The notes under the pieces are model-generated. The model saw only the letters and a program-made list of their open reading frames with translations. It was not told the origin of the DNA and made no database searches. The translations under genes and the position numbers were made by a program. A DNA stretch of 36,323 bases, from NCBI GenBank assembly GCA_013696965.1, contig JACCXN010000059.1:1-36323 (forward strand), written 5' to 3'. The number at the start of each line of letters is the position of its first letter. Position 1 is the first letter of the stretch. This document shows positions 7,219 to 22,481 of the stretch, in pieces. Origin of the DNA: Bacteroidota bacterium. Lineage in GTDB: Bacteria; Bacteroidota; Bacteroidia; JACCXN01.

Positions 7219-7577
7219 AAAAAAAGCCCTGGAAAATTTGAGGCCACTGAAAAAGCTAATCCCGAAGGGATGATACAAATATAGATTAATATTTTTAATT
7301 CCAGTTCAACCCCAGAGGGGTGAAATTATTGATTGTTTATTTTTATAACACCCCTTCGGGGGTTTTGGTTTTAATTGTTGTTATTTTCTGTAATCCTGTC
7401 ACCCTTCGGGGTTAGCTTTTTCAGTGGCCTCCTTTTTGGGGAGGCCTCTGAAAAAGCCTTTTTAATTAAAAAAAATAAAAAAGGGAGTAGATAAACTTGC
7501 GATTCTACTCCCTTTTATTAACATTTAAGTCTTAAAAAGACTTTTTTAGTGGCCTCAAAATTTCCGGGGCTTTTTTA
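7219..7577. repeat. Nested MITE-like inverted repeats
   Basis: Four copies of a GAGGCC(A/T)CTGAAAAAG-type end are arranged as inverted pairs. Left arm 7240-7273 (GAGGCCACTGAAAAAGC then TAATCCCGAAGGGATGA) is almost perfectly complementary to 7399-7431. A second pair is 7441-7462 with 7533-7556. The outer flanks AAAAAAGCCCTGGAAAATTT (7219 on) and AAATTTCCGGGGCTTTTTT (ending 7577) also pair, enclosing the whole block. CCCCTTCGGGG-type palindromes occur inside. There is no reading frame, so these look like two small non-autonomous elements side by side inside a third inverted pair. Confidence 0.75.
7482..7516 (-). terminator. Hairpin downstream of the DUF2911 gene
   Basis: AAAAGGGAGTAGA pairs with TCTACTCCCTTTT over 13 bases across an 11-12 base loop, with A-runs and T-runs on both sides. 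It lies about 80 bases after the minus-strand gene's stop and could terminate it. It also sits within the MITE-like block, so it may simply be part of that element. Confidence 0.5.
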
Positions 7578-19428: not shown

Positions 19429-21657
19429 ATGAGGCGAATAAATTTTGTTCAGTTAATAATTCTACTTTTTTTATTTCATTTCCCAAATTATTTGTGTAGT
19501 CAAACTCCGGTTCTCGATTCTCTCGAAAATATTTTAAACTCCGCAAAAGCCGATACTATTAGAGTTAAAATATCCAATCAATTAGCTTGGGAGTATCTTA
19601 TGAATGGAGATACTGAAAAAGCATTAAAATACACTCAAAATTCTATCAGCTTAGCTAATAAAATTAAATTCCCAAAAGGCGAAGCTGCTGCATACAATAA
19701 TTTAGGAAGTATTTATTGGAGCCAGGGAGAGTACAGTAAGGCATTACAGAATTATAAAAAGGCATATGACATTGCTTATTTAATGGGAGATCAAACAAAA
19801 CAATCTTCCTTTTTGGGAAATATGGGAATGATCTACATTTTGCAAAGTGATTATATGAATGCTTTAGATGTTTATCATAAGGCTTTGAAAATGGATGAAA
19901 AACAAGGCAACACTAAAGCTATTGTGAAAAATTTCGGAAGTATTGGAACTATTTATAAAGAATTAAATGATTATGAGAAGTCTTTAGAATATTGTCTAAA
20001 AGCTCTTGAAATAGCTGAAAAGATCAACGATATTAATGGGAAGGCAAGCAATTATGGAAATATCGGAAATGTGTACATGGAAAAAAAAGAATATAAAAAA
20101 GCATTAGACTTTTATCAAAAAGCATTGGTACTTGAAAAGGAGTTAGATGACAAATACGGCATGGCAGGCGAAATGACCAATATTGGCTCTGTTTATTCTT
20201 CCATGGCCGAAGTTAGTGCTGCAAATGACAAAGCAGGTTTGTTTCATTTAGCCCTTGAATATTTTAACCAGTCGAATTTAATAGCAAAATCATTAAATTT
20301 AAAAAACATTGAGGCTTTTAATCAACATGCTATTGCTTCTATTCATTTAAATCAAGGTAAGCTTCCAAAGGCATTTAGCTTAATAAATAATGCTATTGTT
20401 TTACAGGAAGAAATGGAAGCAATTTACTACTTGAAAGACTCGTATTTAACTCGTTCAAAGATTGATAGTGCCCTAGGAAATTATAAAGACGCTTATTCCA
20501 ATTATAAAAAACATAAATATTGGGAAGGAATGGTAGCTAATGAGGACAATAAGAAGGCTAAAATTCAAAAACACATTCAATATGAATATGAAAAAAAAGC
20601 CACTGCCGATAGCGTTCGGGCTGCTAAAGAAAAGGAAGTGAGTGATGCGAAAATAATGACGCAAAAGGCACAAATAGAGCAAGAGAAAACCAAAAGCTAT
20701 TCTTTATATGGAGGCTTGGCTTTACTATTTATTTTTGGCGGGTTCATGTATAATCGTTACCGAATAACTCGAAAACAGAATATCTACATTGAGGCACAAA
20801 AAAAAGAGGTAGAAATTCAAAAACAAATTGTAGAAACGGCCCATCATTTACTTGAAGAAAAAAACAAAGAAGTAATTGATAGCATCAATTATGCTAAACG
20901 AATTCAAGATGCACTACTTAAAAACGAGGAACATGAAAGCAAGCATTTACCTGAACATTTTATCTTTTTTAAGCCCAAAGACATTGTAAGCGGAGATTTT
21001 TACTGGTCATTGGAAAAAGACAATCATCTTTATCTTGCTGCTGCAGATTGCACAGGACATGGCGTTCCTGGAGCTTTTTTAACCCTGTTGGGAACAAGTT
21101 TTCTTAATGAAATTAATGCTCATGATAAACTTCTTACACCGTCTCAAATTTTAGATGAACTTAGAAACAGGTTCATAAAGGAGCTTAATCAAACCGGAGC
21201 AGAGGGGGAATCTAAAGACGGGATGGATGTTTCCCTTGTTCGAATAAATCTTAAAAATTTTGAGACTACTTCTGATCAAAATAGTCAAAAAGATTCACTT
21301 GAACTTCAGTTTGCGGGAGCTAACAATCCACTTTACCTAATAAAAGGAAAGGAATTTCATGAAATTAAAGGCGACAAACAACCAATTGGTTATCATAATG
21401 TAATGAAGCCTTTTACTAATCATATTATTCAACTAAAAAACAAGGATAATTTTTACATTTTCACTGATGGTTTCCCCGATCAGTTTGGTGGGCCTAAAGG
21501 TAAAAAGCTAATGTATAAAATGATGAAAGAAATATTAAATTCTATATGTCATAAATCAATGGAAGATCAAAAAATGACATTAAACAATAGTTTTAACAAT
21601 TGGAAAGGTGATTTGGATCAGGTAGACGATGTTTGTGTGATTGGAGTTAGAGTTTAA
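19429..21657 (+). CDS. TPR-repeat sensor with SpoIIE-type (PP2C) phosphatase domain
   Basis: The gene encodes 742 aa. A signal peptide or anchor (residues 1-24) is followed by at least five TPR units (about 40-340), for example AAAYNNLGSIYWSQGEYSKA, KASNYGNIGNVYMEKKEYKK and KYGMAGEMTNIGSVYSS. One transmembrane helix lies at about 423-442 (LYGGLALLFIFGGFMYNRYR). It is followed by a coiled coil (about 443-490), then SINYAKRIQDALL and a SpoIIE phosphatase domain (about 500-742). Metal-binding aspartates are visible in VSGDFYW, AADCTGHGVPGAFLTLLG, FTDGFPDQFGG and VDDVCVIGVRV. TPRs should face the periplasm and the phosphatase the cytoplasm, so a periplasmic signal would control dephosphorylation of an anti-sigma-factor antagonist. 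No such partner is encoded nearby. The architecture is common in Bacteroidota. Confidence 0.92.
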   Translation: MRRINFVQLIILLFLFHFPNYLCSQTPVLDSLENILNSAKADTIRVKISNQLAWEYLMNGDTEKALKYTQNSISLANKIKFPKGEAAAYNNLGSIYWSQGEYSKALQNYKKAYDIAYLMGDQTKQSSFLGNMGMIYILQSDYMNALDVYHKALKMDEKQGNTKAIVKNFGSIGTIYKELNDYEKSLEYCLKALEIAEKINDINGKASNYGNIGNVYMEKKEYKKALDFYQKALVLEKELDDKYGMAGEMTNIGSVYSSMAEVSAANDKAGLFHLALEYFNQSNLIAKSLNLKNIEAFNQHAIASIHLNQGKLPKAFSLINNAIVLQEEMEAIYYLKDSYLTRSKIDSALGNYKDAYSNYKKHKYWEGMVANEDNKKAKIQKHIQYEYEKKATADSVRAAKEKEVSDAKIMTQKAQIEQEKTKSYSLYGGLALLFIFGGFMYNRYRITRKQNIYIEAQKKEVEIQKQIVETAHHLLEEKNKEVIDSINYAKRIQDALLKNEEHESKHLPEHFIFFKPKDIVSGDFYWSLEKDNHLYLAAADCTGHGVPGAFLTLLGTSFLNEINAHDKLLTPSQILDELRNRFIKELNQTGAEGESKDGMDVSLVRINLKNFETTSDQNSQKDSLELQFAGANNPLYLIKGKEFHEIKGDKQPIGYHNVMKPFTNHIIQLKNKDNFYIFTDGFPDQFGGPKGKKLMYKMMKEILNSICHKSMEDQKMTLNNSFNNWKGDLDQVDDVCVIGVRV

Positions 21658-21697: not shown

Positions 21698-22076
21698 TTA
21701 TACTATCGCAATCATTTCAGCTGCCTTAATTGCAGTTGTTTTAACAGCCTCTACATTTACGCCTATCGAATCCCATGCAAGTGCAACTCCAATTCTTCTT
21801 GCCAGGAGAATTTCCCAAGAAAATATTTTTTTTCGTTGAGCCATTTTGATGAACCAGATTCCATTAGCTTGGATGGAGAAATAGTTGGGTGCATCACCAC
21901 AAATATGTGTGTATGGTCTGGATTACAGTAAATGGTATAGGTTTTACATTTTTGGTTTGTTACTATGCGCACATTACCTTTTCCAATTCGTCTCTGAATG
22001 TTTCTTTGATTAGGTTTTGCCGTCCTAGTACCGAAAAAACGAATTGAATGGATAATTGTCTAAATGTGTTTGCCAT
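21698..22076 (-). pseudogene. Decayed IS200/REP-associated (RAYT) transposase
   Basis: From ATG 22076 the frame gives MANTFRQLSIQFVFSVLGRQ and NLIKETFRDELEKV, then TAG. The next frame (from 21972) continues IVTNQKCKTYTIYCNPDHTH, IFVVMHPTISPSKLMES, GSSKWLNEKKYFLGKFSWQE. These are the N-terminus, the HUH metal motif (DHTH) and the SSKW..KFSWQ block of Y1/IS200-type transposases. After WQE the frame is lost again and the catalytic-tyrosine region cannot be recognised; only an unplaced 48-codon frame (21844-21698, MAQRKKIFSW..) remains. The gene is inactive. It lies next to a palindromic repeat block, as RAYT genes often do. Confidence 0.82.
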
Positions 22077-22090
22077 TTGTTTAAATGATG

Positions 22091-22369
22091 TCAGGGCTAC
22101 GCCCCTTTATTAGTTTTTATTGTTTTTCTACGAAGATTTTAGGGCTACGCCCCGTTATTTTTATCATTGTTCATTCATTTTAGGAACAAACCCTGTTTCA
22201 AACCCTTTTTTGTCATTTCAATTGTTCTATTTTCTGCGCAGCCACAGGTGAGGACACCTGCGGCTGTGGTTCAGTTTTTCACAAACTCGCGAGTGCGCAG
22301 TATATTGATTTTGAGGGGCGATAGCCCTGTATTCTTCGTAGTAGAGATAAATGAGGGGCGTAGCCCTGA
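22091..22369. repeat. Palindromic repeat block next to the RAYT relic
   Basis: TCAGGGCTACGCCCC (22091-22105) is inverted as GGGGCGTAGCCCTGA (22355-22369). Inside it, CTACGAAGATTTTAGGGCTACGCCCC (from about 22128) pairs with GGGGCGATAGCCCT..CTTCGTAG (22315-22342). At the centre GCCACAGGTG-AGGA-CACCTGCGGCTGTGG (22240-22269) folds as a ten-base stem. The whole is thus a nested inverted repeat of about 280 bp without a reading frame. REP-like elements paired in this way are the usual partners of RAYT transposases. Confidence 0.75.
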
Positions 22370-22481
22370 AATCTATCAATTGTACCATTCAAATAAATAG
22401 TTTGTATCATATTCAATTCCAAATTTCCAACAATAACAAATATTCATCTCTGAAGGATTGTTTTTTATGATGCTTTAAAAA

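Follow-up and report, generated by a model that had tools for sequence, protein, structure and literature searches.

The palindromic block at positions 22086 to 22374 of the window (the whole stretch of 36,323 nucleotides analyzed, which is contig C59 of a genome of 3.86 Mb in 106 contigs) is probably a REPIN-like unit of a transposase-palindrome family of the Bacteroidota, that is, part of a REP/REPIN-like system with an IS200-like enzyme. Judging from sequence comparison, we assign this reading a probability of roughly two in three. In the window a broken transposase gene lies beside the palindrome, and intact relatives of this gene carry matching palindromes, which suggests that the family runs a mobile-repeat system; that the units are moved by the enzyme is what we infer from this arrangement.

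The transposase relic reported in the earlier note is real. A tblastn search of the window with an intact relative of 154 amino acids from genome G014 detected the 5' part (residues 1-97) of a dead IS200-like gene of the TnpAY1 subclass 1.2 type at 21796..22076 on the minus strand. In this alignment (linked E 1.9e-36) a frame break near residue 37 separates two pieces, residues 1-36 of the relative at 22076-21969 and residues 38-97 at 21966-21796; the DHTH motif is located at 21907-21918, and the Pfam model Y1_Tnp matches this relic with 30.4 bits (cut-off 23). No transposase alignment was obtained with this query for 21698-21795, the first part of the interval given in the earlier note. A further gene piece, overlooked earlier, was found at 22376..22475 on the minus strand (E 1.3e-9): it is a frame-broken 3' gene end from this transposase family, comprising residues 121-153 and the stop codon in two tblastn pieces, 22475-22425 and 22426-22379. 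The palindromic block is sandwiched between the 5' gene piece on one side and the 3' gene piece on the other. Residues 98-120 are absent from both pieces in the tblastn alignments, and with them Tyr115, which is invariant in 33 aligned intact members.

The nested palindrome said to adjoin the start of the relic was confirmed as well. The block consists of two hairpins, a spacer and two more hairpins in inverted orientation, and begins nine bases upstream of the start codon of the 5' relic. A pattern for the whole unit matches at 22086 over 288 bp, the reversed control giving no match, and the right end was read to 22374; the left end is TGATGTC, which is AGATnTC in other copies. Terminal hairpin 1 (22093..22105, minus strand; AGGGCTACGCCCC on the plus strand) lies 16 bases away from the start codon of the transposase. 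Internal hairpin 2 and its conserved tail (22128..22153, minus strand) are composed of CTACGAAGAT at 22128-22137 and the hairpin at 22141-22153, the minus strand reading hairpin-AAAATCTTCGTAG; GCGTAGCCCTNANATCTTCGTAG matches here at 22128-22150 with 0 mismatches. The spacer contains a GC-rich hairpin region (22232..22307). On the plus strand follow internal hairpin 3, GGGGCGATAGCCCT, which has a variant loop and a ATTCTTCGTAG tail (22315..22341), and terminal hairpin 4, GGGGCGTAGCCCT, with a terminal GAAATCT (22355..22374). Within the block AGGGCTACGCCCC is found at 22093, at 22141 and, in reverse, at 22355, with a variant at 22315. Folding of the block as single-stranded DNA yielded -58.4 kcal/mol compared to a mean of -25.0 for shuffled sequences (z -9.87, none of 200 shuffles being as low). 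The block is not a product of chance. A CRISPR array, prompted by the period of about 50 bp, was set aside because the stretches between the hairpins are, by eye, near-copies of one another.

The earlier note had considered that similar palindromes might be scattered over the genome and that an intact transposase copy might exist; neither wide scattering nor an intact copy of this subfamily was observed. An exact genome-wide search for the hairpin 13-mer gave 21 places (reversed control 0), three of which may be double-counted, as contigs C33 (at its end) and C75 (at its start) read the same over 127 bases. With up to one mismatch the 13-mer is confined to C59, C33 and C75, and all 13 matches of the composite motif described below are on the same contigs. 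At C43:1575-1686 we found a degraded second copy of the GC-rich spacer hairpin together with hairpin 3 and its tail (84% identity over 112 columns). About 1.4 kb from this second GC-rich hairpin lies an open frame (L287 3130-3498), which the ending of the TPR-SpoIIE gene beside the relic (window 19429-21657) resembles. A second transposase copy, at C33:7108-7568, was detected by tblastn and is frame-broken too; no intact copy of the window's subfamily was found in the source genome, both copies found being broken. Contig C17 encodes an intact but different relative (53% identity). The palindromes of this relative have a TCCC stem of their own; with up to 3 mismatches they were found at 18 places, 10 of which are within C17:4863-6108. 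For the source genome, the view of the relic as the fossil of the palindromes' source is a possible one.

Array units at C33 557, 741 and 927 and at C75 141 retain the last codons and the stop of the gene, and resemble what would be left of a gene that was flanked by two units and deleted up to its edge. The surroundings of these arrays show additional features. A fragment resembling transposase residues 79-103 is present among the upstream palindromes at C33:6939-7016 (E 9.3e-5), and the interruption of the second transposase copy lies at a perfect palindrome of 15 bases (C33:7363-7377), whose pattern TCCCGATNNTCGGGA occurs at one other genomic place with a different centre. The arrays of loci L024 (C33) and L025 (C75) alternate with related genes that we named PAS histidine-kinase-like by reading; two of these share C-terminal residues, which hints at a segment duplication between the arrays. 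Elsewhere in the window, at 7258-7277, the 20-base palindrome-bearing string AATCCCGAAGGGATGATACA is identical on six contigs (C4, C5, C19, C37, C59 and C91) and may be a dispersed palindrome that belongs to another lineage.

To the relic the earlier note had given a double label, RAYT/IS200, of which the IS200 half stood and the RAYT half did not hold in its usual sense. The intact G014 relative scores 75.6 bits with the NCBIfam IS200 model NF033573 (cut-off 55) and 31.7 bits with the REP-transposase model NF047646 (cut-off 80). A scan of named genomes gave 191 relatives, the best 80 of which were kept; by their tree labels nearly all of these 80 are Bacteroidota, with one Balneolota and one Calditrichota. 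The signature Y---Q--HH, and not the Y---NP of class 2, is present in 74/80 (best 80 of 191) and was read in these relatives, the gene pieces of the window being without residues 98-120. DHxH was likewise found in 74 of the best 80 of 191. In the window, as in the consensus of the majority among the 33 aligned members, the third residue of the HUH motif is T, as opposed to the I or V of DH[IV]H. W95 and Q96 are invariant in these 33 members (153 columns), and the stricter pattern WQ[EDSNAT] is found in 64/80 (best 80 of 191). In its accessible part, Quentin et al. (2018, PMC6006769) gives a DH[IV]H HUH motif, a WQ motif and a length of about 148 amino acids as features of TnpAY1 subclass 1.2. 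An AlphaFold2 model of a Reichenbachiella member (mean pLDDT 83.8) has its best fold matches in the ISDra2 and IS608 transposases (TM about 0.57-0.60); comparison with the E. coli RAYT-REP complex 4er8 gave an rmsd of 3.0. The reading proposed in the earlier note, a canonical RAYT together with a REP family of its own, would agree with an HUH/Tyr1 protein between inverted palindromes and with the GTAG in the motif, but it is contradicted by the score with the REP-transposase model, by the Y---Q--HH signature and by the GTAG itself, which lies about 10 nt past the 3' side of the hairpin and not at its 5' foot. We regard this reading as very unlikely, and a typical RAYT was rejected on the first two of these grounds.

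That transposase and palindromes belong together, as had been suggested, is supported, and the pairing recurs in many Bacteroidota. In a class sample of 395 genomes the exact 13-mer was present in 22 and a homologue with an E value of at most 1e-35 in 126, with 1 to 5 matches per genome at E 1e-35. Among the matches listed, those of at least 80% identity come from three genomes: G000, where the gene is broken, and G014 and G117, where the frame is open and free of stops. The 13-mer is present there in 21, 5 and 10 copies, respectively. Two or more palindromes of the GGGC type were present within 500 nt of the gene at all 44 loci with at least 75% identity, at 2/4 loci with 66-74% and at 1/32 below 66% (best 80 of 191). 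Among stretches of 500 nt taken far from the gene at the close loci (at least 75%), 1 out of 73 contained any GGGC-type motif. These locus counts are not independent because related loci have flanks in common by descent. The flanks were also compared with each other, using shuffles as control because comparison with other loci is noisy, hairpins being common to loci. One locus, L224, was dropped for its short flank, leaving 79 of the best 80 of 191: at 54 of these the inverted flank-to-flank match exceeded all 100 dinucleotide shuffles, 25/79 failed this test, and a match in direct orientation passed at 28/79.

Among 44 loci examined, the gene start lies at most 16 nt from a unit end in 30/32 measured loci and the gene end in 32/36. 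Gene edges recur at few of the best 80 loci (the 5' edge at one, the 3' edge at three), compared to 1/1327 for internal controls. In the upstream array of G117 (L148/L157) the beginning of the transposase gene, start codon and first codons, is present three times in degenerate form. Hairpins with a conserved foot or tail were additionally observed in G164 (L102, L149, L150), G235 (L151) and G149 (L107). For these three genomes no transposase of at least 75% identity was among the matches listed, and their hairpins are either orphan repeats or belong to a missed gene. Among the exact 13-mer places inspected in other genomes, the remaining ones are without foot or tail and resemble chance or coding sequence; three 13-mer places in G250 have a different context in common.

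Hairpins of this kind are not restricted to relatives with the same stem. We searched for tailed hairpins (stem of at least 4, loop of 3-4, then [GA]TAG) at the best 80 of 191 loci and found 241 in 62 kb near the genes (within 400 nt) vs 50 in 204 kb far from them; 73 of these 80 loci have at least one. Among the 241 near hairpins, the tail is at position +9 or +10 in 168 and the loop is GTA or GTTA in 130. Of the tailed hairpins with a common loop, 118 point towards each other across the gene and 37 are in the opposite arrangement. Because a hairpin is required by this search, we also ran a test that used the tail as its only anchor, in which 55/294 near anchors had a perfect 5-bp stem (arm-swapped mean 12.3, maximum 22, in 200 rounds) and 3/150 far anchors did. 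At loci with at most 66% identity there were 27 perfect stems at 66 anchors vs an arm-swapped mean of 2.0 and a maximum of 6. Loops ATC, AGC or AAC occur in 12 of the 27 perfect stems with a GCTCC arm, and locus L210 is rich in such hairpins, so that these are not independent. In many distant relatives the stem is a different one, next to a similar loop and the GTAG tail.

When the stem type was plotted on a transposase tree it changed 5 times compared to a shuffled mean of 22.8 (0/500 as low), a measure of clustering to which near-copies contribute. The tree comprises 73 proteins, 7 of the best 80 of 191 having been omitted because of stops or length, and 5/73 rows are unlabelled; the labels were assigned automatically and are sometimes wrong, as for L183 and L184, which are labelled CAGC yet pass the GGGC test. 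Across the family the stem changes with the transposase lineage, and loop and tail change less.

These data also bear on the possibility that the palindromes act in RNA, as terminators or mRNA ends, in arrays that grow by slippage or recombination and with the transposase as a bystander. The hairpins do adjoin gene ends, tandem arrays with a period of about 50 bp are prone to slippage, the copy number is low, and a terminator search returned one terminator-like match, at 22315; with shuffles giving a mean of 0.7 in this search, terminators were rejected as the main role. The stem type tracks the transposase tree, however, the conserved tail is ATCTTYGTAG and not a T-run, units with a defined left end are found away from the gene, and an Rfam search gave two matches, both far below the gathering score. 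Overall, a role in RNA is improbable as the explanation.

A REPIN-like unit, the reading we prefer, is consistent with the anatomy of the repeats. Read from left to right, the complete unit comprises AGATnTC-hairpin, a gap of about 24 nt, CTACGAAGATnTC-hairpin, the spacer, hairpin-GAnATCTTCGTAG, a second gap of about 24 nt and hairpin-GAnATCT; the hairpins are short and GC-rich, with GTA or GTTA as the most frequent loop. Intact genes of the same transposase subfamily lie a few bases from such unit ends. A composite motif was searched in 18 genomes with 3 mismatches allowed (the genome of L194 being outside this set) and detected in 17 of them, with 0 to 21 matches per genome and none in the reversed control. 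By contig and coordinates, about 7 of these 17 genomes have their matches at transposase loci only, and about 10 have at least one match elsewhere. The units are most dispersed in Alkalitalea (21 matches on ten contigs), Lunatibacter (12 on six) and G117 (13 on six). For REPs, hundreds of copies are usual.

Unit ends were aligned for 8 left and 10 right ends, hand-picked from 18 fetched places (L269-L286). All 8 left ends start with AGAT, and the next base outward agrees in 3 of them. Right ends have GAnATCT or a variant followed by T in 7/10; some copies share more, and this end is less sharp than the left one. The whole four-hairpin unit is present in the window, on C33 and C75, in Runella, at L187 and at the Alkalitalea gene locus (reversed control 0). 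The corresponding pattern was tuned on units already seen and is descriptive, not a test; it matched 5/18 fetched places (four in Alkalitalea, one in Lunatibacter near its gene) and had no match at L157, L158, L174 and L092.

The dispersed units are gene-free and have the opposite order, their outer ends being the sides that face the gene at the transposase loci. This bears on another alternative, an ordinary dead IS200/IS605 insertion sequence whose left and right ends, with leftovers, are the palindromes. It gains support from the IS200 model score, which is above the cut-off, from ISDra2 and IS608 as nearest solved folds, from the prevalence of hairpins that face across the gene and from the many loci where only the gene-proximal half unit was recognized. 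Gene-free units of opposite order are not what it predicts, nor are the few matches per genome at E 1e-35. Furthermore, the three sister-species pairs compared (Cyclobacterium, Labilibaculum and Runella) are colinear at the gene locus and differ in array length. We consider an ordinary insertion sequence unlikely, though the least unlikely of the three alternatives. In the Runella pair (L168 vs L175) identity is 81% for the transposase gene and 93-94% for its two flanks, which may reflect either faster change of the gene or its replacement at a fixed place.

For the preferred REPIN-like system we propose the following mechanism. The IS200-like HUH/Tyr1 enzyme would bind the hairpins as single strands, with the conserved tail serving it as cleavage site or guide. 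By cutting and rejoining, it could excise units, copy them beside the gene and now and then move them elsewhere, while the gene itself would mostly stay put. Repeated local joining or recombination might then generate tandem arrays and remove all but the edges of a gene that two units enclose. One late stage of this process may be represented by the window, in which a unit is left between the 3' end of one copy and the 5' part of another, both dead.

A wider interpretation, which we put forward tentatively and at slightly less than even odds, is that subclass 1.2 forms a separate REP-type system that arose independently of the RAYTs. Its IS200-class enzyme would have stopped moving its own gene and would serve an inside-out four-hairpin unit, enzyme and stem having diversified together throughout the phylum, with GTA as the favoured loop and GTAG as the tail. 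In its accessible part, Quentin et al. (2018, PMC6006769) describes TnpAY1 subclass 1.2 as without REP, generally without IS200 terminal structures and without IS properties; the subclass therefore has been without a known substrate. The clade-matched hairpins are candidate substrates for each enzyme, and the natural stem swaps offer ready-made specificity tests. If the enzyme serves the hairpins, a single-strand transposase would have been domesticated into a repeat-serving enzyme outside the known RAYTs. No report of these palindromes or of the two 13-mers was found among the papers listed from a collection of open-licence literature, most subscription papers being outside the search. What appears to be new is a palindrome partner, of the REP/REPIN kind, for a transposase group reported without one.

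Compared with known systems, the enzyme resembles TnpAY1 subclass 1.2 as far as the accessible part of its description goes (PMC6006769) in the Y---Q--HH signature, the WQ motif, a length of about 150 amino acids, its occurrence in Bacteroidetes and few copies per genome; unlike the subclass as reported there, the genes described here are flanked by clade-specific palindromes. With the IS200/IS605 elements (IS608, ISDra2) it shares protein family, fold and the HUH and Tyr motifs, but here the gene keeps its place between the sister species compared, and the dispersed units are gene-free and inside-out relative to an IS. CGTC-tagged REPs, in the part of PMC3733652 available, are short palindromes in Bacteroidetes among other phyla, reported without a dedicated transposase, with a tag that varies to TGTC. 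The palindromes analyzed here are similarly short, are found in Bacteroidetes and often have the foot ATGTC, whereas their stems are mostly 4-5 bp compared to 8-9 bp there. A further parallel is with REP/RAYT systems and REPINs of Pseudomonas, E. coli and Stenotrophomonas, which according to the accessible parts of PMC3116915 and PMC8266576 also have palindromes beside an HUH/Tyr1 gene, inverted units, an own palindrome for each enzyme lineage and tandem clusters beside the gene. They differ from the present family, in which the enzyme is of the IS200 class, the hairpins are arranged two plus two inverted and the copy number is low. In IS608 the guides lie 5' of the palindromes, a part played in REPs by GTAG (PMC8266576, in its accessible part); here GTAG is at +9/+10, 3' of the hairpin, unlike the GT[AG]G of REPs at the 5' foot.
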